Assembly: GCA_039105265.1 (NCBI GenBank)
Contig: JAPFFF010000001.1
Coordinates: 868,001 to 932,000 of the forward strand
Reading direction: 5' to 3'
Origin: Tritrichomonas musculus
Taxonomy: Eukaryota > Parabasalia > Tritrichomonadida > Tritrichomonadidae
Length of the DNA stretch: 64,000 nucleotides
Of the stretch, positions 4,526 through 63,840 are shown piece by piece. A model generated the notes under the pieces. The model was not told where the DNA came from, did no database searches, and saw only the letters and a program-made list of their open reading frames with translations. The position numbers and the translations under genes were made by a program. The stretch's first letter is position 1. Each line of letters opens with the position of its first letter.

Positions 4526-5266
4526 AAAATGACTAATTAAAAAGGGGAACCTCCAGGGTCAATAAGTATTTCTTTTTTTTTTTTTTTTTCCACATAACGT
4601 TTATTATTTTTTTCAAGAATTTTAATTTTATTCCATGATAACCGTTTTTTTATAATAAAATTTCGATAAGCTCATATAAAAAGTTTGTATTGTGATTTAA
4701 AATCTATGTTTTTTTCCTTACCTTTTTCATTCAACTTTTTCTTTCTAAATTATAATCCCTGTATGATTGATCGTTTTTAATTCAATTTTTGAATTATAGT
4801 TTAGTGGATAATCGGCATGGTTAAATATTAAACCATCTTAAACGGTTATCCTGGAATAAAATAAACATTCTGGAATTAAATAGCAAACGTTATAATTGTT
4901 CAAGCAGTTAAAGTAAAAAACTATAAAATATTATAAACAAGAATTTCCAGCAGTCACTTTTTGATAAAATTGAAAAGGATCTCAATTTTTCACAAGAAGT
5001 GATAATCCTCCAGAAATATGAAACAGATCTCAGCTGCCATACACTCGTAAATTTCAATAAAATGTTTTTGTTTTGTAAAATGGAATTTACAAGATCCTAC
5101 TCGTTGAAATAATTATTTCACATTTGCAAAGTATTTCATTTATTCAGTTAAAATAATTAAAATTTTAAGAGATGATTAACTATTAATAATAAAATATTCA
5201 ATATATAAAATGAATTTACTTTACTTAGTGCTAAATTAGTTGTTTTGAATTTCTTATTCAAAGAAC
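4526..5266. other. intergenic region with T17 run and a short coding remnant
   Basis: A run of 17 T lies at 4573-4589. At about 4930-5110 the plus strand has an open stretch without an ATG start whose residues look protein-like (it contains KIEKDLNFSQEVIILQKYET). It is probably the remains of a gene that I cannot identify. Nothing else is supported. Confidence 0.4.
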
Positions 5267-5344
5267 TCACTTTTCTTTGATATTATTATCCAGCAATTTT
5301 TTAATCTCTTGATTACTTGTCATGTCTATTGGCCTTCTCCATTT
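5267..5344 (-). CDS. C-terminal cap exon of the split ankyrin gene 5267-10122
   Basis: The minus strand encodes KWRRPIDMTSNQEIKKLLD, then NNIKEK and a TGA stop (5269-5267). It matches the end of the intact relative at 45240-45319 (GKTPIELVSNKKVISLL), so it is the natural end of an ankyrin protein. It lies 70 bases beyond the last ankyrin unit (5415-5503). Its intact state argues that the whole 5267-10122 locus is one gene rather than debris. The boundary with the preceding spacer is a T run followed by AAATGG. Confidence 0.6.
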   Translation of the reverse strand, partial: KWRRPIDMTSNQEIKKLLDNNIKEK

Positions 5345-5414
5345 AAAAAAATGAATGAAAATCATGAAAAAAAAATATATCAATTTCATCAAAAATCATG
5401 AAAAACATTGTCTA

Positions 5415-8400
5415 CAATATTACAATCAATATTTTTATGTGTTAATAAAATTTTAATTATGTTTATATTTCCTTTTTGAGCTGCAATATGTAGCGCTGTC
5501 TCATAAATTTTTATAAATAATTTCTTTTTTTTCATCATAAAATCAAAAAAATATAAATCTTATGAAATCAAAATATTTCTAATTTTATTAGAAATATATT
5601 ATTTTTAAACTTTAAAAAACTAGATTTTTGTTGAAACATTATTTAATGTGATAAATGAAATTTCACTAAAATATTTGTTGTTAAATATAATTAATGATAT
5701 TTTCATAAAATTGTATTTAAATATAAAACTTAAAATGTATTTTATATTAACATCAATATCTTCTTTTGTTAATAAAAGTCGAACAATTTCATCATTTCCT
5801 TCCAAGCAAGCAACATGCAATGCTGTCTTATGAAAAATAGCTTTAAAAATATAGTTAAAATTTATTATAAAAATGTAATTAGAATACATGCATAAAAATG
5901 TAATTGAAAAATAGAAATTTAAATTTCATTCAAAATTTAATATGAAATGCAATTAAATCGTATGTCATAAATATCATTAAAATATTTATAAAATTTCATT
6001 ATAACATTTATTTTTAAATCAAATAAGAATTTTCTTTATTATAAATTCCATTAATTCTTTTATTAAGGAATTTTCTTTAAATCTAAAATATAAATATGAT
6101 GAATTGAATTTATTTGAAATATGATTAAAATTGAAGATGATTAAAATTGATATAATATTAACATCAATATTGGGATATTCTAATAAAAGTTTAACAATAT
6201 CTATATAATTTTTTTCTGCTGCTATATATAATGCTGTTTTATGAAAAAAAAAATTATTAAAATTTTATGACAAAAATAAAAGTTAAATGAAATTAAAATT
6301 TGAAATTTGAAATTGGATTAAAAATAACTGAATTGAATGAAATTAAAAATATAAACGTTTAAATGTGATAAAAATAACGAATTTGAATATAATTTAAAAT
6401 AATATTTAAAATGTTATTCAAAAGAAAAAACTAAAAATAGTATTAAATAATATTTTTTTATAAATATAATTAATAAAAAAAACTTGAAATATCGTTAAAA
6501 TGATAAAATAAGAAATATTATCAATAATATTTTGATTTAAAATGTAATAAAAAAAATATAATTTGAAATTGTATTGGAAATAATCAATAAAAAATATCAT
6601 TTAATAATTTGAATTAAAATGTAATAAATAAATTATTTTTTAAATTCTATTTAAAAATGTTTTAGTTTAAATTATGTTAAAAATAATATTATTTAAGACA
6701 TAATAAAATTATTTTAAGTATAAATTGAATAAAAAAAATTTATTATTCAATTCCATTAAAAAAAGATTATTGTATAAAATACCATTAAATATATAATTTG
6801 AAATAGAATTAAAAATAAATTAATTAAAAACGTAGTTAATATAAAATATATTAAAATCCAATTAACAAATATTATATAAATTTCATTCAAAAAATCTAAT
6901 ATTTTCAATTTCATTAAAAAACTTTTTAAAATGCATATGATATTAATATCAACATTAGGAAACTTTAAAATTGACTGAACCAGTTCTAGGTCATTAGCTT
7001 GAATTGCATCAATTAATGGATTATTTAAAGAGAAAATGCTTTTATAATTGTAATTAAAAATATTGATTTTTAAATGTAATAAAAATTTATAATTTACAAT
7101 TATAATGTAATGAATGTCTAATTCAAATGCGATTTTAATTTTTAATTTTAAATTATATATAAAAAAAATTAAAACAGATTTTTTGTTAAATATCAATATT
7201 TGGATGATTTAATAATAATTTTACTATTTCGTTATTTTTTTGATTAAATGCTATATGTAAAGGTGTGTCATTAAAATAATCAAACTAAGATTATATGAGA
7301 ATTTAATTGACTGAAATACAATTATTATATTTTATTGTGAATTGGATTAAATATTTTTTAAAAAAATTGAATTAAATATATAATTACAATGTCATGAAAT
7401 AATGCTAATTATAATCGTCCAATAAATAATATAGAATTTGAACGCCATAAAAATGATAAAAATTTGAAATATGATTAAATTTTTTTTTCATTTAAAATTT
7501 CATTAAAAACCAAAAATTTTTAATGATTTCTAAATTTACATCAATATTTGGATTTTCTAGTAAAATCTGAACACATCTAACGTATTCATTTCGTATTGCC
7601 AAAGTTAACAAAGTGTTATTAAAAAATAAAATTCCATTTCATATAATTCAATGCTTTGAAACGCCATATAATATTTGCAATGAATCTTTGGGACATTATC
7701 CGTATTATAAAAACATTAATTTCAAATGATTTTTTTATTAACATCAATATTAGGTTTTTTTAATAAAAGAGAAAAAATTTCATAATATCCATATTTTACT
7801 GCTCCAAATAAGGCTGTCGTTTGAGAAAATTTTTATAAAAAAAAAAACTTTATTTAAATTAAATTGTAAAATTTCATTAATTATTTTAATAACAAATTAC
7901 ATAAATTATAATTTAAAATATTACAATAAAAAATAAAAAATTAAATTATATCATTAGCTTAAATGAAATTTCTTTCTCTATATTTTCTATACTTATGTCA
8001 ATTTCCGGATTTTCAAGCAAAAGTTTTACAATTTCAATATTATTTGATTCAACTGCAATTACTAAAGCTGTTTTATGAAATAAAAAAAAGATGAAATTTT
8101 ATTTCATTATATATGAAACTGTATGCAGATTAAAATATATATTGTAATTCCATTTTTATTAAAATCACATTTTTCAAAATTGTATTAATAATTGAATAAT
8201 AAAATTTGATTAAATAAATCATTTTCAAACTGTGTAAACTCGTATTAATAATAAAACTGATATGAAATTTATATTTATATTTGGCTTTGATAATAAAAGT
8301 TTTACTGTTTCGACAGATTTTTTTTCTACAGCAAGATATAATGGGGAAACATGAAAAATAATATTAAACTTCATTAAATTCAAAATTTTTTTATTTATAA

Positions 8401-8878
8401 TTCCATTAAATTATTTGTTGGAATTCCATGAAAAATATATGAGATCGTGAACAATATAAAAAAAGTTAATTTTCAATATTATTAATAATATATATTTGAA
8501 AATAGAGTTAATGTTAATATCAATTTTTGGCTCTGATAACAAAAATTTAACTATTTCAAAATTATTATTTTCAATTGCAATATGTAATGGTGTGACATTC
8601 AAAAAAAGTTAACAACTTCATTAAAATATTTAAATTAATTTAACACCATAAAATAACAACTAATAGAATTTCATTTGAAAAAAAATTCATTATAAACATC
8701 ATTTTTTAAAAACTAAAAATTTAAAAATGTAATGAAAAAAAAATTATTATGAATTCGATAAAACAAACAAAATTTTGAATTGATTTTAAGTTTACGTCAA
8801 TATTTTCAATTGATAATAAATATTTAACAATTTCAATATAATTGTTTTTAGCTGCAATAAATAATGGAGTGACATGAA
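5415..8878 (-). CDS. array of eleven single ankyrin-repeat blocks separated by AT-rich stop-filled spacers
   Basis: Eleven blocks each encode one ankyrin repeat (for example KTALHVACLEGNDEIVRLLL): 8780-8878, 8508-8600, 8262-8356, 7990-8078, 7732-7823, 7533-7622, 7190-7273, 6940-7030, 6154-6244, 5744-5834 and 5415-5503. Within the blocks the reading frame is almost always open. Between them lie roughly 110-700 bp full of stops, and the frame differs from block to block. Blocks begin after a T run ending CAT or AAT and end at DVNI plus three or four residues (commonly an ATT codon). Joining blocks there restores a period of about 33 residues. No GT-AG or ACTAAC signal brackets them. The blocks probably belong to the gene starting at 10122. 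Binding partners are unknown. Confidence 0.6.
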
Positions 8879-8886
8879 ATAAGAGG

Positions 8887-10122
8887 TTATATAATTTCAT
8901 CAAAAAGTTGAACTTTTTGAATATCAACAAAAAATTCAAAAAAAAATTTTATAAAAAAATCTGAATGCATAATGTCATAAAAATAAAGTTTAAAAATTTT
9001 TTTGGTGTTTGCGTTTGTTATTTTTGAATTGACATCAAATTTTTTGGTATCCAAAAGAAGCTTAACAAAACTAAAATCATTATTTTCGATTGCATTAAGC
9101 AAGTAATATTCGTTGTGATCATTCTGAAGGAAATGCATATTTTGATATTCAAATATTAAGTTAAAGAATTTTGAATCAAAATTTGAAATATCTTTTTCTG
9201 ACAAAATATTTTCTCTCAAAAAGTCGGCGATTTCATTATGATGGCATTTAATTGCCTCTTCAAAACATTCCCAATAAGAATTATCTTTTGGTTCTATATG
9301 ATTTTCTATAAGAAAATGAATTATTTCTGCATTTGAACCATGAATTGCATAAAGCCACAAAGATGGCGTTAACTCTACATTATTCATTTGTAAATATTTG
9401 AAAATTTGAATTGAACCGAAAAATGCAGCATATTCAATTAATGTTGGCTTCTTATCAAGCAAAAATTGATTGGTTTCAAATATTGAGCTCACTTCAAAAT
9501 TATTGATCGGTAAACATGTTTGACTGACATGTGAAATGAAATCATCAATTAAGTCTTCTCTAATAAGTTTGCATAAATATGAGTCATTTTCACCAATTTT
9601 GCATTTTTCTTCAAAACTTTCAATGCTTCCTTGATAGTACTGAGAAATTTCAAATTCAAGCCTCTTTCTTTTTCGTTTGCCAACGTATAATTTGAGTGCT
9701 GAATAATATAAATGGCGAAATCGTAGTTTATTTTGATCTTTCTGCTTAAAAATAGAAAGGATGGTGAAACTTTCCTCTGGAATAAGTTTGTTTTCTAGTA
9801 AGAATAAAACAATACGTCGGTTTGTTTGGAAAATATCAAAAAAATCAAATGATTGAAAATTGCTTGTAATAAAATCCGAAAAATATAGGAGAATTTTTTC
9901 AATTTTCCCAAAAAAGTCTACTCTTCTGTTATGATTTTCTGAAATATGTAGTATTAATTGAATAAAATATGTACTTTCTTTTGTATTTTTTTTAATATTT
10001 TTTAATTCTAAATATTCGATTAAATTCGCATAACTTTGACTTTCTTCCTCTTTGCTGTCAATAAAAGTAAGGAAAAGATCATAAATTTGCCTTCTTTGAT
10101 CAATGTATTCTTGAATTTCCAT
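8887..10122 (-). CDS. DUF3447-type ankyrin protein, N-terminal exon of split gene
   Basis: The start is the ATG at 10122 (MEIQEYIDQRR), which matches the MEIENYIEI start of the related gene at 41813. The longer frame to 10203 would need TTG. The domain carries the family landmarks: NHNRRVDFFGKIEKILLYF, TNRRIVLFLLENK, CKIGENDSYLCKLI, PTLIEYAAFFGSIQIFKYL and CHHNEIADFL. Homology to ankyrin stops near 9020, after FDVNSK. The remaining codons to 8887 are AT-rich and look like translated spacer, so the true exon probably ends at about 9020. The rest of the protein would come from the eleven ankyrin blocks (5415-8878) and the cap (5267-5344). Confidence 0.75.
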   Translation of the reverse strand: MEIQEYIDQRRQIYDLFLTFIDSKEEESQSYANLIEYLELKNIKKNTKESTYFIQLILHISENHNRRVDFFGKIEKILLYFSDFITSNFQSFDFFDIFQTNRRIVLFLLENKLIPEESFTILSIFKQKDQNKLRFRHLYYSALKLYVGKRKRKRLEFEISQYYQGSIESFEEKCKIGENDSYLCKLIREDLIDDFISHVSQTCLPINNFEVSSIFETNQFLLDKKPTLIEYAAFFGSIQIFKYLQMNNVELTPSLWLYAIHGSNAEIIHFLIENHIEPKDNSYWECFEEAIKCHHNEIADFLRENILSEKDISNFDSKFFNLIFEYQNMHFLQNDHNEYYLLNAIENNDFSFVKLLLDTKKFDVNSKITNANTKKIFKLYFYDIMHSDFFIKFFFEFFVDIQKVQLFDEII

Positions 10123-17355: not shown

Positions 17356-17910
17356 AATATCTTTTTAAAAAATAAACATTTCAGAAATTGGTTTAAAATT
17401 TAATTTATATTAACTAAAAATAATGTGAGAAAAACAATTAAATTAAATAAATATACTTTTTTTTATTTCGAATCATTTTTTGATTTCATGATAATGAATC
17501 AGTATACAATGAACAAAATTGATTTGTTATATTTTCTGTGTATTAAACGTTTTAATAAAACCATCATCCTTTACATTTATCGTATATACTTTTCGAAAGT
17601 GAATTTTAATAAAAAAAAATTTGAAAAATGAATTGTATCTCGCTCAATAATTAATACTTAATCTTATAATCATTATATTTATATTATATTATTATATGAT
17701 TAATCATATATCTCATAAAATCTGTAATACACTCCACGATTGCCATGGTGAAGTTTTCTTTTTAGAAATCTTGCCAAACTTTTTCAATGAAAACTTGTTT
17801 GGAATCAAATTTCTAGAGTGAAATAAGGTTTGACTCACAAATAAGATCATTCATGAAAATAGCAAATAATGAAATATCTAAAAATAATTTTTGTGTTTAA
17901 AATGTTTATT
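17356..17910. other. intergenic region, nothing recognised
   Basis: AT-rich sequence; the ORF at 17425-17631 has low-complexity composition and no recognisable features. Confidence 0.5.
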
Positions 17911-20895
17911 TTACATATCAAACTTTTCTTTGAGGATTGGACTCGAATTAATTACTATATGTGGAATGTGTTTTTTTAAATAATATTTTAGCTTCGTATT
18001 CAATTTGAATTTAACTAATAATTCAAAAATATTTATTTTTTCTGTGTTATTTAGATTAGGATTATATAAGTTATAATAGCGATGGAAGAACACATCAAGC
18101 GGAGTTTCATTCTAGCGTGTTAGTCAAATACTAAAAATAAAATAAGCTATCACACAAATATTAAACCATTGAAAAAAAGTCTTCTCAATTTTTGAATTAC
18201 TCTCTCAAAATTTGAGAGGCTTCAGAATTTTGTGTGTCAGCTTAAAATAAATAAATCAAACCATAAAATTCTTTTTCATTAAATATGAACTCTGGTCAGA
18301 ATTATCCAAAAACAAGTTCAGTATTTCATAACAATTTTCTTTCTCGAAAATGTAATGAAAAGGATTATTTCCTCTTTTGTCAGTTGCTCCGATGTCGATG
18401 TTAGGTTCATCCAACAAGAAAGATATAAGATCAAGATTACCATTCAAAACTGCCAAATGCAAAGGCGTAAACAAATTCTTTTTTTCTTTTTCATTAATTG
18501 GAAGATTCTTATAAGCAAGCAGCATTCTTTCACCATCTTTTTTAAGCTCGTGTAAAAAAGCTAGCAAGTGCAGCATTGTCATTCCATATGCAGCTTTATC
18601 ATAAATGTTTACAGTGTCTTTGTATTTGATCAAAATGACTTTCAGAACATCATGCTCTTTGTTCAATAAGCTGCATAGAAAAGGCGTCATTTTTGTCTCA
18701 TCATTTTTTAAATTTATATCAAGATCAAACTTATCGTAAAAAGTGACAAAATCATTTTCATTCAAAATCAAAGCAGCAAAACAAGCAAACAAATCTTTTT
18801 TCTTTCCAACAATTGCTTTCTTGATCTCTTCAATTTCTTCATTTTGGCTGTCTCCCAAAAAATACTCTGTGACATTTTTAACGTACATCATTTCATCATT
18901 ATTAATAAGTGTAACAGCATCATCAGGATTTATAACTGCCGCTTCCTTAAGTGCCAAGAAAGAATACTTTCCGATCTTCTTTAATGAAGGCTGCAGTATG
19001 AGATAGTCCGCAATTTCATAGTTCTTTTCTGACAGCGCGTATTCAAAAAGATAGACATGATCGTTTGTAAACCTCTGAAATTTTTTTTCATTCAATAAAA
19101 ATTTAACAATTTCTAATTTATCGTTTATAACAGCAAATTGTAAAGGACCAACATTCAAATATGTCACATTTGATTTGAAATCCTTCTGATTAACAATAGT
19201 TTTAACAAGATCGAGTTGATTTTTGTATATGGCAATAAAAATTGGAGCTTCAAGTTCAAATTAAAAAATAGAAATTCCGTCGAGGTTGTAAAAAAAAGGA
19301 GAGAAATTCTTTTTAGTTACTTTTTTAGATGAATAATTACAATTGTAGGGTAATTTCAAAGCAAGTCTTGCGAGGTAGAAATTGTTGTAAAGCATTGATA
19401 TTGAAAACAAAGGTTGGTAGTCAATTCCAATTGAAAACAAATATGAAAGACTTTCCAAATTGTTATAACGAATTGATTGCTTCAAAAGAATATTCTCATC
19501 AATGTGAATAATTCTCCGAGTAAAGAACATTGGAAATTGGTTGAAAAAGTAATATATTGAGTTAGTTTTGAATGGCTGATAAGTTTCAACAAGCCATTCA
19601 AAAATTTCGTTATGATTGTATTGAATTGCTTTCAAAATGCAATTTCTGACTAATTCTGGGTTAAAAATGACCATTTCTGAGCATTGGTGAATTATTGATG
19701 AATTTCCACCACAAACCGCCATAAGCATCGTGTTTGATTTTATTTCAATTTTTTGGCTTTCATTCATTAAAATAAAATTGAAAATTTTTTCAGAGCCAAA
19801 GAAAGCACACAAATCAATGTATCTGATATTCATGTCAACCAGGTCGCTGCTTCTCTCATATATCGTAGTCGTAATTTTTTTTCTGTACTTTGAATTGTTC
19901 GTGTCTTCATTTGTCAGTTGTGAGAAAGAGTCCAAATCATCGTTCTTGATGCTTTGGAAGATTTTGTCAGGATTTGAGCCTTTCAATGCATACTCATTCA
20001 AAAAGTCCAACTTTTTGAATGCTTCATTTTCAATGGTTGTTCTATCATGAATGATTATATTATTTTTTTTATCCTGATTGTTAACTATATCTTCGTTTAG
20101 CTTTTCATATAGAATGTCTCTGAAAATTATAGGAATTTGATCGTCATTGTGCTTTTTTAATGAGGAAATGATCGTTTCTTCAGAAATTTCTTTGATTGAA
20201 TACAAATGACGAACAATAAATCGTATCTCGTTTAAATTGTCGTTGTCTTTAAGTTCAGACAATATTAATTTCTTGAAATATTGAAAAGTGTCACTTTTTG
20301 TTTTAATCTCAAATTCTTTCAAAAAGTTCATCAAAAGTTCAATCTTGTCGGATCTGGCCAAGCATGTCGTCAAAACGATGTTATATAGAAAATCATTATT
20401 TATTTCATCATGGCTCTCTTTGAGATAGCATAAATGGTCAATTAATTGACCATAATTATCGTTATCAATTTCAAGCATTTTTTCTATGATTTCTTTTTGA
20501 ATTGTAAAAAATGAATCCGTCGTAAAAATGTCGTAAGACTTCTCAAACATGTCAATTATGCTTTTCAACTCTTCTATTTCAAGTTCTCGCGCAAAAATTT
20601 TAAGAACTTCTTTGTTCGTAACTGTAATCTGTATAGGTATTTTATTAAAAATGTCAGAAAAATACTTGTAATCGTTTTCTGAGCATATAAATGAATTATC
20701 AAACTCTGGGATACTGATTGAAAAAAAAATGTTGGGATCTTTTTCAGTGGAATCTGGATCTGATGTTAATCGATCTATTTTCTGGCTGATTGAAGTTGCA
20801 TTATTTTGAGGAGTGGTGATTTCATGCCCATTTATGTGTATTCTCACGATATTAATTTTTTTTTTAACAGGAATATTAAAAACGAATGAGTACAT
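17911..20895 (-). CDS. BTB-like/ankyrin protein, two exons, interrupted by one in-frame TAA
   Basis: Start ATG at 20895, end TGA near 17911. Exon 1 (20895-18262) carries a BTB-like/BACK-like helical N-terminus (about residues 1-300), then DUF3447-like and ankyrin repeats (IRYIDLCAFFGSEKIFNF, GPLQFAVINDKLEIVKFLL, FTPLHLAVLNGNLDLISFL). Exon 2 (18111-17911) joins in phase 0 across the intron 18112-18261, giving NETPLDVFFHRYYNLYNP, the last ankyrin. A single TAA at 19263-19261 interrupts exon 1 between DGISIF and FELEAPIFIAIYKNQ. Both sides are in the same frame and otherwise well conserved. Either the copy has acquired a nonsense mutation or the stop is read through. Predicted cytoplasmic. An initiator-like TCATAA lies 19 bases before the ATG. 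Confidence 0.7.
18112..18261 (-). other. spliceosomal intron of trichomonad type (150 nt)
   Basis: On the minus strand the intron begins GTTTGATTT at 18261 and ends ACTAACACGCTAG at 18112. The end resembles the trichomonad fused branch-point and 3' splice motif ACTAACACACAG. Splicing joins ATG (codon 18264-18262) to AATGAAACTCCG and restores an ankyrin repeat in phase 0. The intron contains a hairpin (CTCTCAAAATTTGAGAG on the plus strand). The 5' site differs from the usual GTATGT. Confidence 0.75.
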
Positions 20896-25849: not shown

Positions 25850-25983
25850 CTCCCGTGCGGCTTAAAACGTTCATTAGATCATTAGAGTAAGTATAAAATA
25901 CTAAAGAGCGAGAGTGATGATTCACTCAGAAAAAGAAGGGGTAGCCCCCTCCCAAAAAAAAAAAAAAAAAAAAAACTGCCTAA
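25850..25983 (-). repeat. conserved hairpin-rich segment, copy A
   Basis: Follows the zinc-finger ORF on the minus strand. It holds a GGGG/CCCC hairpin (GGGAGGGGGCTACCCC), a GAGTGAATCATCACTC hairpin, the block TTAGTATTTTATACTTACTC and the end CCGCACGGGAGGAG. A 22-base A run (25954-25975 on the plus strand) interrupts the start. Copy B at 30228-30352 keeps the same order of parts. One stem position differs by a compensatory change (C-G versus U-A), which hints at a selected RNA structure. Confidence 0.55.
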
Positions 25984-27293
25984 TTATTCAGCTGAGGAGT
26001 GTTGGACTCCCTCCTCATTGGTATCAGAGGCAGACTGGGCACCAAGTGCTTGGTTCCAAAGAGAGGTGGTGCCTGAGTTTTCTAGAACGACAATCTCATC
26101 GTCATTGGTTTCGGGCGAAAACCACTTGGCAGATATATTCACCTCGAATGATTGCAATCGAAGACCTTCAACGTTAGATGCTGGATGAGATCTGTTTGAA
26201 TGTTGCTTGACAGTGGCTTTGTCTTTTCCAATGAAGTCACTGCAAATTGAACACATCGAACCACGCAGATCACGAAAGACATCCCGCGTCGCAAGTAAAC
26301 ATTTGCATCTTCTAGCGTGCAGGATGTTCAATGCCCAGAAAACACCCACTTCTCTTTTGAGAGCTTCAAGTTCCTGATGAGCGGAACCGATATGGCAGCT
26401 CAACAAATTTGCCCGACTCACAAGATAGTCACAGTCACTCACAGGACAAACATAAATGGTCCGATAATGTGGAGCATCTGCCGGAAGATGAGGCGAGTCA
26501 ATCTTCCATCTTAACTTACGACCAATTATGTATTTAAAAGCCGCCTGTTCAATTGGAACCCCATTCGTTACATGCAACTACCTCAGGGGGAATGATAACG
26601 AGGCACAGGTAGGGAACGTTTTGTCGCAACAAGGGCAATAAAACTGCCCAACGCCCAACAATCTACACTTCTGATAAATCAGAGGGACGATAGGAGCATT
26701 TACATCAACAACATCAGCGAATGGAGACATGTCAATATTTCCAACCTGAAGTTGGTCGATGAGCGAGGTCAATTCTGCTTTAGAATTGATTTTGGACTGC
26801 TCATCCACAATCCATTCAATTGACATCCTATCGTCCCTTGACGGTGAAGAACCTCTATCATTACCACCGTTGCGATCATCATCAGAGTGATCAGTGTGTT
26901 CTGATTGAGAACGCACCTCGGAGAAGTCTTTTGCACCACTAATAGTACTACTCGTACTAGTGGATGAAGTTTGGGTGCCTAAGGAATTGTTTCGAAAGTA
27001 AGAAGATGAATTGAATGATGAGTGATCCCCTGCGAGAGTAAATAAGGGGACCACCTTCTCATTGAACTCGAAGACGAACTTAGGAACCTCGATGAAGGAA
27101 GTGACGACTTTCTCCTTCGTGACAATCTGATGATGATCGATTTCAGCAATTGACGTGACAACCCGGTTGTCAACGTCAACTCTGTGATGATCGACTACAG
27201 CGGATTACGCGACAGTCCGATTGTCGACGTCAACAGTAGTATATACTAGTCGGTTTCCGCTGGGGCTGGCTCCCCACGCGTCAACACGAACTA
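25984..27293 (-). pseudogene. C2H2 zinc-finger ORF of a retroelement-like unit, 5' truncated, with two in-frame stops
   Basis: A single minus-strand frame runs from about 27293 to the TAA near 25984, broken by TAA (27207-27205) and TAG (26580-26578). The upstream part has a Ser-rich acidic region and a short internal repeat (VDVDNR, DHH). Three C2H2 fingers follow. The first, YCPCCDKTFPTCASLSF, has lost its first His (Pro instead) next to the TAG. The others are CPVSDCDYLVSRANLLSCH and CSICSDFIGKDKATVKQH. No ATG opens the frame. Base composition is clearly GC-richer than the surroundings. C2H2 fingers ahead of a reverse transcriptase are known in R2/NeSL-type retrotransposons. No reverse transcriptase is visible here, so the assignment is inference. 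Confidence 0.55.
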
Positions 27294-27365
27294 GTTAAAA
27301 AAAAAAAAAATAATAATAAAAAAATAAAAAATAAAAAAAAAATTTCTTCTTCTTATTTTCTTGTT

Positions 27366-27530
27366 ATCCCACCCACCCACCTCAATACTCACCATCTATG
27401 AAACGGCACAGGGCTCACCCCAATGCTCACCATCTATGAAACGTCTTAAGTATCCCACCCACCCACCTCAATGCCAACCATTTATGAAACGGCACAGGTA
27501 CCCCACCCCACTACCGCCCATCTATGAACA
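27366..27530. repeat. C-rich tandem repeats (CCATCTATGAAACGG family)
   Basis: Four imperfect units share CACCATCTATGAAACGG and, in two of them, CCCACCCACCCACCTCAATG. The block is far more C-rich than the surroundings and lies between the zinc-finger remnant and the 54-bp repeats. Confidence 0.7.
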
Positions 27531-27870
27531 GTAGAATAAACAGTATCAAATTTCGGAGTAACTTCATGCGCTTGAACTAAAGGAGAAGAATTAACAGTGT
27601 CAGATTTCGGTGTAACTTCATGTGCTTGAACTAAAGGAGAAGAATTAACGGTGTCAAATTTCGGTGTAACTTCATGTGCTTGAACTACAGGAGAAGAATA
27701 AACAGTGTCATTAATAAAAAAAATCATCAGTGTTAAATTTCTGTCTTAAATCAAGTACCTGATCATTCGGAGTAGAATAAACAATATCACTATTATCATT
27801 ATTATCTAAATCCTTAGTAACATTAGAAAAATTAAAATCAACATCTGAAAGAGTAGATGGAAAATTGAAA
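27482..27870 (-). pseudogene. broken ORF with three 18-residue tandem repeats
   Basis: The minus strand encodes three copies of SSPLVQAHEVTPKFDTV-like repeats (54 bp each, about 27520-27700). Upstream, another frame reads STLSDVDFNFSNVTKDLDN and then VYSTPNDQVLDLRQKF. The two meet in an eight-base A/T run (27716-27723), where the frame shifts by one. No start codon is clear. The product is unknown; it may belong to the same GC-richer unit as the zinc-finger ORF. Confidence 0.4.
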
Positions 27871-41812: not shown

Positions 41813-44800
41813 ATGGAGATTGAAAATTACATTGAGATAATAAAAAAAAATCAATTTAATATATTATCGTTTTTAAACAGTAATGAAAGCATGGAAGAAA
41901 ATTACCAAAATATAACCAATTTTTTTGATGATCAACAAATTCGAAATAACAAATATGAAATGAAATTATTTTTAAGGTTAATTGTTCATTTATCCAATTA
42001 TCATCACCGATCAACTAATTTTTACCACAAAATTGAAATGATTTTACTTTACTTCAAAGACGAATTCCACAAATATTTTACGAATTCCGAAATCTTCGAA
42101 ATTTTTGAAAGCAACAAAAGAATTCTTTTATTTCTAATTGAACAAAAAATCATCTTGTTTGATGAATCAATTTATAAATCTATTTCAAGAATAAAAAATT
42201 ATTTTTTATATTTCGAAAATGAAATTAAATCATTTGAAAAAAATAGAAATCAAAAAGGCAAGCAAGAAAACAAAAAAGAAAATGATAGTGATAAATTTTC
42301 AGAGGGATTGGTTCTTTTTAAGTTCAATCATGAAGAAGAAATAGATGATCAAAAGAAATTTTTATTTAATGAAAAAAGAAAAGTTGGTGAAAATGACAAT
42401 GAAATATGTAAATTGATTAGAAATGATTCTGTTGAAGAATTTGATAAATACATCACAGATAATAATATATCGCTTAATTCAAAAGTTAATGAATCAATAT
42501 TTGAAACAAATACTATTTTAACGAATAAAAAAGCATCATTAATTGAATATGCATCTTTCTTTGGATCCATCAAAATATTCAATTTTTTGCATTCACATAA
42601 AGCGTCTTTAACTCCGTCTTTGTGGATCTATGGTGTTCATGGATGTAATGAAGAAATATTAAATATTCTTGAGAGTAATAATATTAAGCCTGAAGATGAA
42701 ACATATTCAAAGTGTTTTGAAGAAGCAATCAAGTCTCATCATAACGATATTGCATATTATATTGGATACACTTTTTTACAAGTAAATTCAGATATCATTA
42801 TTGAAAACAACAAATATTGTCATCAATATTATAATTTTATGCTGTTTGAAAATTTGTTAATTAATAAATATGTTGTAAAATTGGTTGAATATGATTATTA
42901 CACATTAGTGAAGCTTCTTTTACCATCGTTCAACGTAAACAAAAAAATAGAAATGTCTGACAGTTTTTTAAAAAAATTTGATCAATTTAGATGGTCCAAA
43001 AAAACGGTTGAAAAACCGATATTGGCTTTTGCGATTGAAAAAGGAAATGTTGACATCGTTAAACTTATTTTATCTAGTCCACAAATTGATTTTAATATAA
43101 AATTGGTAGAGAAAACTAATTGGTATCGAATAAACGATGATGCTGAAAGTTTAAAAGAAAATTGGATAGTTGAGAAAACAATGCTACAAGTTGCTTTTGA
43201 GAATAAAACCAAAAATTTTCAATTAATTGAGACCTTATTATCAACAACTTCTATTAATATCAATGATACAATTACAATTCAAATGAATACCAATGATGAA
43301 ATCGTCAAAACAAAGAAGACAATTTTGCATTTGGCTGTTGAAGAAGGAAATTTAAAAATACTTCGTCTTTTGTTATCACATCCCAAAATTAATGTTAACA
43401 GCAAATACTTAGTAACTGAAAATGATTCAACAATATTAAAAAATATTACTGCGTTGCAAATTGCAGTTGATACTGAAAATATAGAAATTTGTAAACTATT
43501 AATATCGCATCCAAAGATTGATAACAATTTTGTTTCAAAAGATTCAAAATCGAATGAAACTCTGTTAAGTAGTGCAGTTCAAAATAAAAATATAGAAATT
43601 GTAAAATTGTTATTATCAAAATTTAATATTAACATTAATGCAATTGTTGAAGCAAACGTTATTCGTATCAATAAAAGTGGGCGAGGTAAAAATTTAGTAA
43701 AAATAAAAAGAACAGCATTATGCATTGCAATTGAGAATAATGATATAGATATTACTAAAGCACTGTTATCGTATCCAAATATTAATGTAAATATTGCATC
43801 AATTGAGACATCAGCAAAATTCACTACTGAAGAAACGCCATTATTTATAGCAGTTCATAATAATTGTATAGATATTGCTAAACTTCTTTTGGCAAATCCA
43901 AGGATTAATGTTAATGCGAAATCAACAATGATATCCCAAAAATACAAAATAGAAATTCCTTTGTTATATAGAGCTGTTGAAATAAAATCTATTGATATTG
44001 TCAAATTATTATTATCAAATCCGAATATATTTATTAATGATACTTTTAATAAAGAATACGAATATAAAAATACAATAAGTAAAAAAACTGCTATACAGTT
44101 AGCTATTGAAATGGATCAATCTAAAATTGCACAAGTTTTATTATCAAATCCAAACATTGATGTTAATTGTAAATACACTGTTGTTAAAAACAATTCAATA
44201 AATTTGGTAAATTTGGCATTATTGAAAACTGCTGTTGAAAATAGTAACATTGAAATCGTTAAACTTTTATTATCAAAACCAAAAATTGACCTTAATTTCG
44301 TATCGACTAATTATCAATCAAAAATGAATGATGAGATTGATAGCGATTATGATGAAGAAAAAGACAGAACAATAAAAGAAACAGTACTAGGTATTGCGGT
44401 TAAATTACATGATACTAAAATTGTTAAACTTTTATTATCATACCAAAGTATTGATGTGAATATTCAGGTTATTGAAGAATCAAAAGAATCGACATCTGAA
44501 AAAACACCATTATTTATTGCAATTGAAAATGAATATGATGACATTGTTAAACTTTTATTATCTAATCCGAATATAAATGTTAATATGAAATCATCAGAAA
44601 TACGGATATTAGCATCATATAAAGCACAAAAAACTCCATTATACAAAGCTGTTGAAAACAAATCTACCGAAATTGTGAAATTATTACTGTCAAATCCAAA
44701 TATTGATGTTAATGATCTATCAATTGAGTCAACAATAAAAATGACATTAAAGCAAACAGCTCTATATTATGCGGTTGAAAAAAAATTAACTTCAATTATT

Positions 44801-45319
44801 GCTCTATTATTATCAAATACTAATACTAATCCTAATATTAAATCAGAAGAAATTCTTCCTGATAGCACATTAAAATCTGAAAAAACACCATTATTTAAAG
44901 CCATTCAAGATCGATCTCTGCTTATAATTGAATTTTTAGTGAAATATCCATCTATAGATGTCAATGTAAAATCACTTGAGACGAAAAATTCATCTTGTGG
45001 AATAATGAGGTGTGAAAAGACTCCCTTATATCTGGCAGTTGAAAATATACAACAAGAAATTATACAAACTTTATTAAAAAATCGAAAAATTGATGTTAAT
45101 CTTCTATCTTGTAAAACAATTAATATTGATGGCGAGAATTTTATCAAAACAGATTCTCCTTTGCATATTGCTGCATTATCAGAAAAATTAGATATTATTA
45201 ATCTTTTATTAAAAAATAAAAAAATTGATGTTAATGTTAAAGATGAGCATGGAAAAACGCCAATTGAATTGGTAAGTAATAAAAAAGTAATTTCATTGTT
45301 GAAACAAAAAATTGAATAA
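41813..45319 (+). CDS. intact DUF3447/ankyrin repeat protein (1168 aa)
   Basis: The ATG at 41813 opens an uninterrupted frame. The N-terminal domain (about 1-380) carries HHRSTNFYHKIEMILLYF, ESNKRILLFLIEQK, RKVGENDNEICKLI, ASLIEYASFFGSIKIFNF and SHHNDIAYYI. It is followed by about sixteen ankyrin repeats (TPLFIAIENEYDDIVKLLLS). Between repeats there are extra linkers of 5-20 residues, longer than in canonical ankyrins. The protein ends with the cap GKTPIELVSNKKVISLLKQK. It is the same family as the split genes at 5267-10122 and 60694-63840, but here the linkers are coding and in frame. It gives a direct comparison for the spacers in those genes. It is predicted to be soluble. Confidence 0.9.
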   Translation: MEIENYIEIIKKNQFNILSFLNSNESMEENYQNITNFFDDQQIRNNKYEMKLFLRLIVHLSNYHHRSTNFYHKIEMILLYFKDEFHKYFTNSEIFEIFESNKRILLFLIEQKIILFDESIYKSISRIKNYFLYFENEIKSFEKNRNQKGKQENKKENDSDKFSEGLVLFKFNHEEEIDDQKKFLFNEKRKVGENDNEICKLIRNDSVEEFDKYITDNNISLNSKVNESIFETNTILTNKKASLIEYASFFGSIKIFNFLHSHKASLTPSLWIYGVHGCNEEILNILESNNIKPEDETYSKCFEEAIKSHHNDIAYYIGYTFLQVNSDIIIENNKYCHQYYNFMLFENLLINKYVVKLVEYDYYTLVKLLLPSFNVNKKIEMSDSFLKKFDQFRWSKKTVEKPILAFAIEKGNVDIVKLILSSPQIDFNIKLVEKTNWYRINDDAESLKENWIVEKTMLQVAFENKTKNFQLIETLLSTTSININDTITIQMNTNDEIVKTKKTILHLAVEEGNLKILRLLLSHPKINVNSKYLVTENDSTILKNITALQIAVDTENIEICKLLISHPKIDNNFVSKDSKSNETLLSSAVQNKNIEIVKLLLSKFNININAIVEANVIRINKSGRGKNLVKIKRTALCIAIENNDIDITKALLSYPNINVNIASIETSAKFTTEETPLFIAVHNNCIDIAKLLLANPRINVNAKSTMISQKYKIEIPLLYRAVEIKSIDIVKLLLSNPNIFINDTFNKEYEYKNTISKKTAIQLAIEMDQSKIAQVLLSNPNIDVNCKYTVVKNNSINLVNLALLKTAVENSNIEIVKLLLSKPKIDLNFVSTNYQSKMNDEIDSDYDEEKDRTIKETVLGIAVKLHDTKIVKLLLSYQSIDVNIQVIEESKESTSEKTPLFIAIENEYDDIVKLLLSNPNINVNMKSSEIRILASYKAQKTPLYKAVENKSTEIVKLLLSNPNIDVNDLSIESTIKMTLKQTALYYAVEKKLTSIIALLLSNTNTNPNIKSEEILPDSTLKSEKTPLFKAIQDRSLLIIEFLVKYPSIDVNVKSLETKNSSCGIMRCEKTPLYLAVENIQQEIIQTLLKNRKIDVNLLSCKTINIDGENFIKTDSPLHIAALSEKLDIINLLLKNKKIDVNVKDEHGKTPIELVSNKKVISLLKQKIE

Positions 45320-60693: not shown

Positions 60694-62526
60694 TTAATTA
60701 TTTGATTTAATTATTTTTGCGTTTGGCGGAAAAGCTCCTTTTCCGATTGATTTCAAATTTTCAGGAATTATTATTTCTTTTAATGAAAAGCAGTCTCCAA
60801 ATGCATTTTGACCAATACATTTTACAGAAGAAGGAATCGAAATTTGTTTCAATGAAGAGCATTTATAGAATGCATTTGATTTAATCGAAGTCACGGAAGA
60901 AGGTATTGATATTTGCTCTAGTGAAATACAACCTCCAAAAACGTCAGGATTAATTGTAGATAAAGAAGAAGGAAGTGATATTTGCTTAAGTGAAGTACAA
61001 TCAAGGAAAGCACAAGACTCAATTGATTCCACTGATGATGGAATCTCTATTTTCTTTAATGAAGAACATTTATGAAATGCATAATTTCCAATATATGTTA
61101 CAGATGATGGAAGTGTTATTTCTTCTAATAATGTGCATTGATTAAACAGATAATCTGGAATTGATTTCATATCACCTGAAATATTAATTGATGTAATTTC
61201 TTTGAAAATGTCTTTTCCAAAATACGTTATTGAAGATGGAATTGTTATATTTGTTAATGATTTACATCCGTAAAAAATTCTATTTCCGATATATGTTACA
61301 GATGATGGAATTATGATTTGTTTCAACGAAGTGCAAAATTGGAAAGTTTTGTCTTGTATCTTTGTTATAGATGCCAATATATTTATTTGTTTCAGCATTG
61401 AACAATCGCCGAAAGCACATTGACCTATCGATTCCACTGAGGAAGGAATTGTTATTTCTTCTAAAGATGAGCATTGATTGAAGGCAAGGTTACCAATTTC
61501 AATTACAGATGATGGGATTATTAAATGTTTAAGAAATTCACAATTTTCGAATGCATTGTCTTCAATTACAGTTACCGAAGAAGGAATCGATATTTCTATT
61601 AATGAATAACAATTCTTAAAAACGGACTCTTTGATCGATTTTACTAAAGGTGGAATTGTTATTCGTGTAAGAAGTTGACAATCTTCAAATGATTTTGCTT
61701 CAATTGAAGTTACTGAATCAGGAATTTCTACTTGGTTTAATACTTGACATCCTTCAAAGCATGAGCTTTCTAATTTTGTTACAGTATTTGGAATTGAAAT
61801 TTTTTTCAAGGATTTACACTGTAATAGCAAACTTTCATTGATTATAGTTATATTAGAAGGAAATGATATTTCTTTCAAATTGGATTCAGCGAAAGCATGA
61901 CTTTTAATTGATGTTAATGTGGATGGAAGCGATATTTCAATTAATGGGCATTTGTAGAAAGCATATTGCCCAATAGTAACCAATGATGAAGAAAGAGAAA
62001 CTTTTCTTAATGATGAACACCTGCAAAAAGCATTATCCCCAATTGAAGTTACTGATGAAGGAAGTGATATTTCAACTAAAGACGAATTGTTTGAAAATAA
62101 TCCATCTGGAATAAACTCCATATTGCCTAATATATTAACTGATGTCAATCCTTTGAATGCATCGGCACCAAATGATTTCAAAGAAGAAGGAATCGTTATT
62201 TCATTTAATGATGAACATCCATAAAAAGACCTGTTTCCAATTGATGTCACTGTCAATGGAATTGATATTTTAGCTAATGAAGAACATCCATAAAAAGCTT
62301 CATCTTTGATTGAAATTAATGCTGGAGGAAGCGTTACTTCGGTCAATGACGAACATCCTTTGAATGCGCTTTTTACTATAATTTTTATATATGGAGGAAT
62401 AGTAATTTTAGTTAATTTGGAGCAATTCGTGAATAAATTTATGTATTTGATACCTTTCTGAGAGAGCAATAATTGAATGATTTCTTGATGATTGTTCTGA
62501 GCTGCTGCATACAATGGAGTTATATA
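60694..62526 (-). CDS. ankyrin plus BspA-like LRR coding block of a split gene
   Basis: The open frame lacks an ATG. It begins with one ankyrin repeat (TPLYAAAQNNHQEIIQLLL) and passes directly into about twenty-four BspA-type 23-residue repeats (LTEVTLPPALISIKDEAF; core IPSSVTSIGNxAF). It ends with TAA near 60694. The repeats are intact, with no stop. The block must continue from the DUF3447 exon at 62647-63840, the next coding sequence upstream on the same strand. About 120 bp of AT-rich DNA with stops separates them. The result would be a DUF3447-ankyrin-BspA fusion protein without signal peptide. Confidence 0.7.
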   Translation of the reverse strand, partial: YITPLYAAAQNNHQEIIQLLLSQKGIKYINLFTNCSKLTKITIPPYIKIIVKSAFKGCSSLTEVTLPPALISIKDEAFYGCSSLAKISIPLTVTSIGNRSFYGCSSLNEITIPSSLKSFGADAFKGLTSVNILGNMEFIPDGLFSNNSSLVEISLPSSVTSIGDNAFCRCSSLRKVSLSSSLVTIGQYAFYKCPLIEISLPSTLTSIKSHAFAESNLKEISFPSNITIINESLLLQCKSLKKISIPNTVTKLESSCFEGCQVLNQVEIPDSVTSIEAKSFEDCQLLTRITIPPLVKSIKESVFKNCYSLIEISIPSSVTVIEDNAFENCEFLKHLIIPSSVIEIGNLAFNQCSSLEEITIPSSVESIGQCAFGDCSMLKQINILASITKIQDKTFQFCTSLKQIIIPSSVTYIGNRIFYGCKSLTNITIPSSITYFGKDIFKEITSINISGDMKSIPDYLFNQCTLLEEITLPSSVTYIGNYAFHKCSSLKKIEIPSSVESIESCAFLDCTSLKQISLPSSLSTINPDVFGGCISLEQISIPSSVTSIKSNAFYKCSSLKQISIPSSVKCIGQNAFGDCFSLKEIIIPENLKSIGKGAFPPNAKIIKSNN

Positions 62527-62646
62527 AATATTTTAATAATAAAAACTTTATATAATTTTCCAATGATGAATGTCATTTAAATCTTTATAAATGAAATTTT
62601 ATTCAAACATTTTCACCAAAATGCGATTCAATCATAAACCATAAAA
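62527..62646 (-). other. AT-rich spacer between the two coding blocks of the split gene
   Basis: Minus strand: T-rich words and stop codons; it ends in TATTTATATAACTCC before the ankyrin block. The upstream exon ends at about NINFE, the usual linker position. No ACTAAC motif or convincing GT-AG pair was seen. The coding blocks on either side happen to be in the same frame. Confidence 0.45.
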
Positions 62647-63840
62647 CTATATTAAAAGAGATTCAATATTTGAAATTTTATAAATACATAAATAGATCAG
62701 AATTAACTCGAAATTGATATTAATTGCTTCATTTTCTATAAAAAGTTTAACAAGCTTGACGTAATTATATTTGCACATGTAAATAAATACTCTTTTATCA
62801 TTAAAATAATCTGGAATGAAATCATAATTATGATAATGAAAACAATATGAGACTATATTTTCATTTATGCTATTTTTTATTTGAAAAACCGCATCTGATT
62901 CATTTATATAGTTATTAATGAAATAATTAGCAATGCTATTGTGATGACACTTGATGCTTTCTTTAAGAAGTTTCAAATAAAAACTATCAGGCAATTCGAT
63001 ATGACATTCCTCAAGAAGATGGATTAATTCAGCTTTATTACTGTGAATCGCATAAAACCAAAGTGACGATTCTAATTCAACTTTGTTTAATCGTAAATAT
63101 TGAAAAATCTTAATTGATCCAAAAAATGCAGCATATTCAATCAATGTTGCCTTTTTGTTGATTAAAAATGAATTTGTTTCAAATATCGATGGTTCTATCT
63201 GACTATTGAGCGGAATGTTTGCTTGATTTACAAAAGTAACAAATTGCTCAATTGAATCAGTACGAATTAATTCACACAAATATTCATTATTTTCTCCTAT
63301 TTTACGTTTTTCTTCAAATTCATTCATAGATTTTACACGTTGTAAAATTGCCTCTTTAATTGAGTTTTCTTCTTTTTCGGAAAGAAGATTTTTGACTTCA
63401 TAGTAAAAAAAGATTTCTTCTTTTCGTTTGATCAAAATTTTCAAAATATTTTCATCAACAGAAATGATTTCGTGTTCAAAAAGTGAAAGAAGAAGAAGTT
63501 TATCTTTTTTGAAAAAATTGAATATTTCGAAATTTGAAAAGCTTTGTTTGATTTGCTCTGAATAATGCGTCAAAATTTTCATGATTTTGGTGGCCAAATT
63601 CCCACTTCTATTATAATTTTGTGAAACACATGAAATTGCTTGAAGCAATTCACCTAATTCATCACGGTTTTGGTCAATTTTTTGTAATTCAATTTGATTA
63701 TAAAATTGACATAATAAATCGGAATATTCGTTGTCAGGTTCACATTCAATGATCCTTAAAAGGGACTCATAAATTTTCTTTTCTTGGGAAACATAATCTT
63801 GGACAGACATTTCTCCGAAAATTTTTGAATTTAATGACAT
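62647..63840 (-). CDS. DUF3447-type N-terminal exon of the split ankyrin-BspA gene
   Basis: Start ATG at 63840, or 63810 (MSVQDYVSQEKK), which aligns better with MEIQEYIDQRR of the gene at 10122. An initiator-like TCACAT overlaps the first ATG and would favour the second. Family landmarks are all present: NYNRSGNLATKIMKIL, KDKLLLLSLFEHE, RKIGENNEYLCELI, ATLIEYAAFFGSIKIFQYL and CHHNSIANYF. Homology ends at AININFE (about 62700). The remaining codons are probably spacer. Confidence 0.75.
   Translation of the reverse strand: MSLNSKIFGEMSVQDYVSQEKKIYESLLRIIECEPDNEYSDLLCQFYNQIELQKIDQNRDELGELLQAISCVSQNYNRSGNLATKIMKILTHYSEQIKQSFSNFEIFNFFKKDKLLLLSLFEHEIISVDENILKILIKRKEEIFFYYEVKNLLSEKEENSIKEAILQRVKSMNEFEEKRKIGENNEYLCELIRTDSIEQFVTFVNQANIPLNSQIEPSIFETNSFLINKKATLIEYAAFFGSIKIFQYLRLNKVELESSLWFYAIHSNKAELIHLLEECHIELPDSFYLKLLKESIKCHHNSIANYFINNYINESDAVFQIKNSINENIVSYCFHYHNYDFIPDYFNDKRVFIYMCKYNYVKLVKLFIENEAININFELILIYLCIYKISNIESLLI

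Follow-up and report, generated by a model that had tools for sequence, protein, structure and literature searches.

How could an ankyrin gene be expressed when its repeats are parted, one by one, by DNA full of stop codons? The question is raised by a locus of Tritrichomonas musculus on the minus strand at positions 5267-10122 of a 64,000-nucleotide stretch of contig JAPFFF010000001.1 (positions 868,001 to 932,000 of the forward strand, assembly GCA_039105265.1), the whole of which is referred to here as the window. A first-pass annotation, made from the letters alone, had offered two answers: either the intervening DNA is taken out by an unusual process acting on RNA or DNA, or the gene is being dismantled with strikingly even conservation of its repeats. 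The reading that we rank first, with a probability of about 0.5, is that the spacers are intron-like sequences of an old class, sited at ankyrin joints, which would be removed from RNA without GT-AG signals; a functional short protein followed by recent relics is the main rival.

Results

The locus holds one ankyrin gene in pieces, with an N-terminal open reading frame (ORF), eleven single repeats and a C-terminal cap lying in order on one strand, just as the first-pass annotation had described. The N-terminal ORF (8887-10122, minus strand) encodes 411 amino acids, comprising an N-terminal helical domain, ankyrin repeat 1 and a tail that, beyond D-V-N, is derived from the first spacer. It matched Ank_2 at 3.4e-8 and DUF3447 at 1.5e-5 (25.3 bits, below the cut-off of 26.9), and by its sequence, which has both N-terminal relatives and ankyrin repeats, it is assigned to the DUF3447/ankyrin proteins. 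Each of the eleven cores downstream has 28 codons, from K/V-T-x-L through D-x-N. On the same strand they occupy 8790-8873 (B1), 8513-8596 (B2), 8267-8350 (B3), 7991-8074 (B4), 7737-7820 (B5), 7534-7617 (B6), 7186-7269 (B7), 6942-7025 (B8), 6157-6240 (B9), 5746-5829 (B10) and 5419-5502 (B11). The C-terminal cap (PIDMTSNQEIKKLLDNNIKEK) and its stop lie at 5267-5332; the cap had no Pfam match and was assigned by eye against the end of an unsplit paralog in the window (41813-45319, plus strand, 1168 amino acids), which has the same N-terminal domain, many repeats and long polar coding linkers at the same joint.

A repeat profile built from 154 distinct repeats of other, unsplit relatives gave 10 of the 11 cores scores of 33.7-55.9 bits, while the best of 7835 fragments in 50 dinucleotide shuffles of 5200-8886 reached 10.0 bits. 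In the same scan 16 repeats of the unsplit paralog scored 18.0-52.2 bits, so that the split cores are not degraded by comparison. The earlier statement that every block is open and well conserved is therefore borne out by ten of the eleven scores and fails at B7, which contains a stop, and at B8, which is weak. GC content by codon position was also alike, at.403/.214/.114 in the eleven cores and.389/.232/.129 in ten repeats of the unsplit paralog, and at third codon positions of the cores it was near the level of the spacers.

The twelve spacers between the pieces are 86-701 nucleotides (nt) long; they hold stops and their lengths are unequal modulo 3, in agreement with the earlier description of stop-filled, frame-changing DNA. 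Because the lengths differ in this way, stops read as residues would not hold one frame, and read-through or another genetic code was rejected. The GC content of the spacers was 13.3%, versus 22.5% over 19 stretches taken as intergenic (range 14.3%-31.3%). Among all words tested, some were enriched in the spacers, such as AATGAAATT (7 occurrences versus 0.29 expected) and AATGGAATT (5 versus 0.13 expected), and the longest spacer (B8-B9) contains degenerate tandem repeats.

A search with the 411-residue ORF found 1148 relatives at E <= 0.001, of which 120 are listed and designated by P numbers below. The named ones among these are from T. musculus and most others come from several sources, so that 1148 is no gene count for one genome. 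Of the listed relatives 112 are short (<480 residues) and eight are longer, with BspA-type repeats; the label 'split' refers to ORF length in a relative, the DNA being visible for the window genes only. The D-x-N column was located in 108 of the 112 short relatives and failed in P0013, P0029, P0101 and P0119. In these 108, no stop was present in the 432 codons from +1 to +4 after D-x-N, 13 of 108 stopped at +5, and between +6 and +30 stops occurred in about 1-16% per codon. When two window ORFs were included (110 rows), position +3 was I in 55% and position +4 was I or V in 70%; among 44 long relatives, 26 have K, E, N or D at +4 and five have I. In the tails F, I, K, L and N abound, and FNEI-like words number 12, versus a shuffle mean of 1.8 and a maximum of 6. 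By eye and with one pattern, a single short listed relative, P0078, was seen to continue into a second repeat, and single-repeat ORFs with similar edges are present in other contigs (P0191, P0192, P0193, P0199, P0200 and P0204). A search for long relatives had 65 hits; it scored only candidates sharing most words and therefore does not estimate the number of unsplit genes. Viral contig and genome contig collections, searched for further DNA, yielded no relative.

The split pattern, which the first-pass annotation had described at 5267-10122, extends beyond that gene: the architecture recurs in the family, and two other genes in the window, both on the minus strand, are cut at the same joint. 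The second split gene, at the left edge, has an N-terminal ORF of 377 amino acids (203-1336), a first spacer of 83 nt (147-229) and a first downstream ankyrin core of 49.4 bits (63-146), with anything further lying outside the window. The third spans 60694-63840 and consists of an N-terminal ORF of 397 amino acids (62647-63840; no Pfam match, 42% to P0072), a spacer of 189 nt (62524-62712) and a second piece of 612 open codons (60697-62532) that encodes an ankyrin repeat and then BspA-type leucine-rich repeats (LRR), without any ATG in its first 137 codons. P0072 has both halves of this gene in one frame (residues 1-359 versus the first ORF, 42%; residues 367-489 versus the second piece, 48%), so that the cut is missing from at least one member of the family.

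The same N-terminal domain was also seen with BspA-type LRR and no ankyrin array in P0016, P0021, P0028, P0051, P0069, P0072, P0077, P0102, P0172 and P0174-P0176. In P0072 and P0172 an ankyrin-like repeat links the N-terminal domain to the BspA-type LRR.

The edges of the spacers were compared at 13 joints of the three split genes (cap joint left out), with patterns picked post hoc. The +4 codon was [AG]T. in 11 of the 13 joints (P about 1e-6 versus spacer background), the -1 codon was.AT in 11 of 13 (P about 3e-7 versus spacer background), and the -2 codon, the one before.AT, was TTT in 8 of 13.

Excision at GT and AG was tested in 14 spacers, including those of the second and third split genes, counting the sites that leave both cores whole (sites inside cores left out). 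A GT ahead of the first in-frame stop was present in ten spacers and absent in four. Three of the four have no usable AG either, namely B4-B5 (7821-7990, 170 nt), B5-B6 (7618-7736, 119 nt) and the first spacer of the second split gene; the fourth is B9-B10 (5830-6156, 327 nt), in which the first GT, at 6005, lies 152 nt past the core and past the first in-frame stop, confirming the run of about 150 bases without GT that had been reported after the block at 6154-6244. An AG opening into the next core was absent in seven of the 14, including B1-B2 (8597-8789, 193 nt), B3-B4 (8075-8266, 192 nt), B8-B9 (6241-6941, 701 nt) and the spacer of the third split gene. Frame-keeping GT...AG excision with both cores whole is impossible in 8 of the 14 spacers. 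The other spacers of the gene are N-B1 (8874-9027, 154 nt), B2-B3 (8351-8512, 162 nt), B6-B7 (7270-7533, 264 nt), B7-B8 (7026-7185, 160 nt), B10-B11 (5503-5745, 243 nt) and B11-cap (5333-5418, 86 nt, with the 3' limit placed at the PID motif by eye). Beyond the window, 18 of the 108 measured relatives cannot code a GT between +4 and the stop.

No ACTAAC occurs on the minus strand of the gene at 5267-10122, as had been claimed, and the best AG-ending 12-mer in 5267-9027 (minus strand) agreed with the ACTAACACACAG-like acceptor at 7 of 12 positions, while the best of each of 100 shuffles averaged 8.07. These results bear on the view that the spacers are spliceosomal introns of the ordinary GT-AG type whose sites are weak or shifted, and whose removal would give extra linker residues as in unsplit paralogs. 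An acceptor-like end of the trichomonad kind (ACTAACACGCTAG) is indeed present near 18112 elsewhere in the window, T. musculus has been annotated with 2,500 intron-bearing genes (PMC11978803), unsplit relatives tolerate long linkers (median 18.5 residues in 68 linkers caught by a pattern), and six of the 14 spacers do hold GT and AG in open frames, with phases not matched. On the other hand, the eight spacers that have no usable GT, no usable AG or neither, the relatives that cannot code a GT and an acceptor motif no better than in shuffles make this view highly improbable. Canonical GT-AG introns were rejected in the eight spacers by frame and signal, and by the missing fused acceptor.

A DUF3447-type gene on the minus strand (within 17900-20895) may contain a canonical intron that closes near 18112. 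In this gene a single in-frame TAA at 19263, beside an ankyrin-like repeat, interrupts one reading frame, with 544 open codons on one side and 334 on the other; it could represent an early stage of the joint-splitting process.

No common RNA structure uniting the spacer ends was found among the 14 spacers. On folding, the ends met in one spacer (B1-B2), z was below -2 in 3 of the 14, and in B10-B11, the 62 kb spacer and others the ends lay closer together than in shuffles. In 13 spacers, end pairing was not in excess over swapped ends, the longest pairing of inverted repeats between the ends averaged 7.08 for own and 7.11 for swapped ends, and direct repeats at the putative borders averaged 4.08 and 4.21. 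Rfam models at gathering score matched two tRNAs in the whole window and no known self-splicing or other RNA family.

Ribosome hopping and ciliate-type DNA removal are known in other systems. For spacers that stay in the RNA and are hopped over by ribosomes, or that are removed from the DNA in some cells, the one feature in favor is that the edges are short, AT-rich and free of splice signals. We consider both the least probable of the explanations weighed here, as hopping would require twelve hops of 86-701 nt per gene, and no observation favors DNA removal: the near-copies of block ORFs from other sources (P0188 and P0189) retain spacer-derived flanks.

Constraint on the N-terminal ORF was apparent from P0001, which like the window ORF has 411 residues: 2 of the 369 positions through +4 differ between the two, compared with 5 of the 42 tail positions (Fisher P = 1.6e-4). 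Judged by this pair, the N-terminal ORF is conserved in the split state while the tail drifts. P0188 and P0189 each carry one residue change. Structure prediction of the 411-residue protein was confident to about residue 360 and poor in the tail. In this model the last repeat of the short protein is uncapped and the tail after it is of low confidence; a fold search of the Protein Data Bank with this model gave no match at E <= 0.001.

A quick tree was built from 161 N-terminal domains (110 short, 38 long and 13 BspA-type or similar), seventeen rows with partial domain matches being dropped. The short class clusters on the tree (22 changes versus 43.3 shuffled, 0 of 500 as low), and the end branches have a median of 0.54 changes per column over all 161 rows; with these long end branches and the clustered short class, the split state looks old. 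Support was low in 86 of 158 inner branches, which are drawn open. The left-edge gene (203-1336) groups with two long relatives at a Shimodaira-Hasegawa-like approximate likelihood ratio (SH-aLRT) support of 95, and the starred branches force at least two changes of split state; the split state was therefore probably gained or lost more than once.

P0020/P0099 and P0009/P0090 are mosaic pairs: one part is identical and the remainder has diverged strongly, and the breakpoints lie at well-conserved motifs. They may reflect gene conversion or chimeric assembly. Such mosaics would be in keeping with a silent archive, in which the blocks donate repeats to expressed family members by gene conversion. 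We regard an archive as very unlikely, since the mosaics break within the N-terminal ORF and not at the blocks, short-read assembly could create them, and the ordered blocks with their cap resemble one gene.

Two other features were seen in the window. A GC-rich island at 25900-27800 (42-47% in 26001-27500) lies within the AT-rich surroundings, has cysteine/histidine-bearing open frames and 48-54 bp tandem repeats, and may be a mobile-element remnant. At 1740-1830, an inverted repeat around TTAATATACTGATATAT was noticed by eye.

Discussion

From the pieces and their conservation, the boundary fixed in the measured relatives, the bias at the edges and the missing canonical signals, we infer the removal of the spacers, its action on RNA and the exact positions of the edges. 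The spacers would sit in the loop between ankyrin repeats, from the fourth codon after D-x-N to the hydrophobic-polar pair before K/V-T-x-L. Their removal from the RNA is probable and would join the repeats through about six residues, as many as in 'VKDEHG', the linker that precedes the cap in the unsplit paralog. The removal would use neither a GT donor nor the fused ACTAAC...AG acceptor of trichomonads, and the 5' edge of the spacers appears to resemble [A/G]TTTTA, the 3' edge a T-rich TTT(C/A/T)AT.

Of the two answers offered by the first-pass annotation, removal is favored over dismantling because the joint boundary is fixed in 108 relatives and in two more split genes of the window. A recent random break does not account for 108 diverged relatives that all end past a single joint, and an old functionless break does not account for the ten good cores and the 612-codon second piece. 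Removal at fixed edges would explain both the constant joint and the intact pieces, and is therefore placed first. The sequence facts and the missing canonical signals on which those answers were founded hold up, and the evenness of the conservation is broken at B7.

Several observations weigh against removal. Core B7 ends in a stop as its last codon through a one-base frame change, and B8, the weakest core, scores 9.9 bits, inside the shuffle range and no better than the best shuffle (10.0). The lesions thus amount to one frame change and one weak core among the eleven, with none in the N-terminal ORF; because of the lesion in B7, this copy of the gene may be damaged already. Two of the short relatives, P0029 and P0119, end before repeat 1. 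The single changes in P0188 and P0189 fall in the core and not in the flanks, and the proportions of nonsynonymous and synonymous differences (pN/pS) among the cores,.352/.526, indicate slightly less constraint than in the unsplit paralog (.325/.557), so that the evidence of constraint is thinner for the cores than for the N-terminal ORF. The ends of the spacers are not brought together by any common structure. Of 66 spacer pairs, z exceeds 2 in 12 on the same strand and in 11 on opposite strands, and three pairs have z above 3; as the similarity does not depend on strand, joint duplication of block and spacer is not shown, and duplication of the two as a unit was rejected. Finally, the named T. 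musculus models (P0005, P0009 and others) stop inside the spacer-like tail, which counts mildly against removal given that the T. musculus annotation from which they probably come had support from RNA sequencing (RNA-seq) (PMC11978803). Such models may reflect gene-finding tools that expect GT-AG.

The main rival draws on several of the same facts. It holds that the working product is a short protein with the N-terminal domain, one repeat and an arbitrary tail, and that the downstream blocks are recent relics, breakage having come through AT-rich DNA that grows at T-runs in loop DNA, with the same slippage-prone seed fixing the boundary. The ends of the named models in the spacer-like tail, the damage in B7, the weakness of B8 and the tandem repeats that fill much of the longest spacer would all fit, and about 46% of the TMAC cyclases, a large T. 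vaginalis family, are pseudogenes (PMC2914791). Yet relics old enough for 108 relatives should be decayed, and ten of the eleven cores are well above shuffles; the spacers are more AT-rich than the intergenic stretches taken together; the second piece of the third split gene is open throughout its 612 codons, including the 137 ahead of its first ATG; and the modelled short protein would end in an uncapped repeat. We therefore consider the short protein unlikely, though the most serious of the alternatives to removal.

Removal of the spacers would mean that T. musculus is a parabasalid with many introns outside the GT-AG rule, and that a large family of genes in this gut protist is mis-annotated as short proteins; database models would stop at the first joint and leave out the greater part of the proteins. 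Without removal, the family would be striking in that about a hundred relatives end past a single joint while the pieces of this gene are largely intact. The broader proposal, that parabasalids of the Tritrichomonas kind have a non-GT-AG intervening sequence with AT-rich edges at each ankyrin joint of a large family, handled by undescribed machinery, is more tentative than the reading of this locus, and we would put it at somewhat less than an even chance. RNA-seq of purified T. musculus has been reported (PMC11978803, which names PRJNA841657). Ankyrin is absent from the main text of PMC12428144, and joint-split ankyrin genes are not described in the titles and abstract beginnings listed from the open-licence literature on trichomonad ankyrins, introns, pseudogene families and parabasalid splice sites.

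Among known systems, the spliceosomal introns of trichomonads are the nearest by lineage. Those of T. vaginalis and T. stableri are GT...AG introns that combine an extended 5' motif with a branch site, ACTAA, fused to the acceptor, and T. vaginalis has 63 active introns (PMC12316389). Like them, the spacers would be intervening sequences in parabasalid protein genes, and a similar acceptor-like end is present near 18112; unlike them, the spacers have neither signal, number twelve per gene and are sited at repeat joints. The nonconventional introns of euglenids and diplonemids have borders without GT-AG, as do the spacers, and the mechanism of their removal in euglenids is called unknown in these reports (PMC4770533, PMC6221363, PMC12621601). 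Their ends are united by RNA structure, in contrast to the spacers, which have no such common feature and belong to another eukaryotic lineage. In Amoebophrya, more than 60% of introns are without GT-AG and classical mappers and gene finders are unfit for them; about 11% and 30% of these introns in two strains have inverted repeats of 8-20 nt and direct repeats of 3-5 nt at the borders (PMC7789003). The spacers share the absence of GT-AG, and differ from the Amoebophrya introner elements in that their inverted and direct repeats are no commoner than in swapped pairings. The TMAC family of T. vaginalis is a large duplicated family with stops and frame shifts (PMC2914791), and in this the present family is similar. 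Unlike in TMAC, almost all lesions of the gene at 5267-10122 lie at the joints, and the 108 measured relatives end beyond the same joint.

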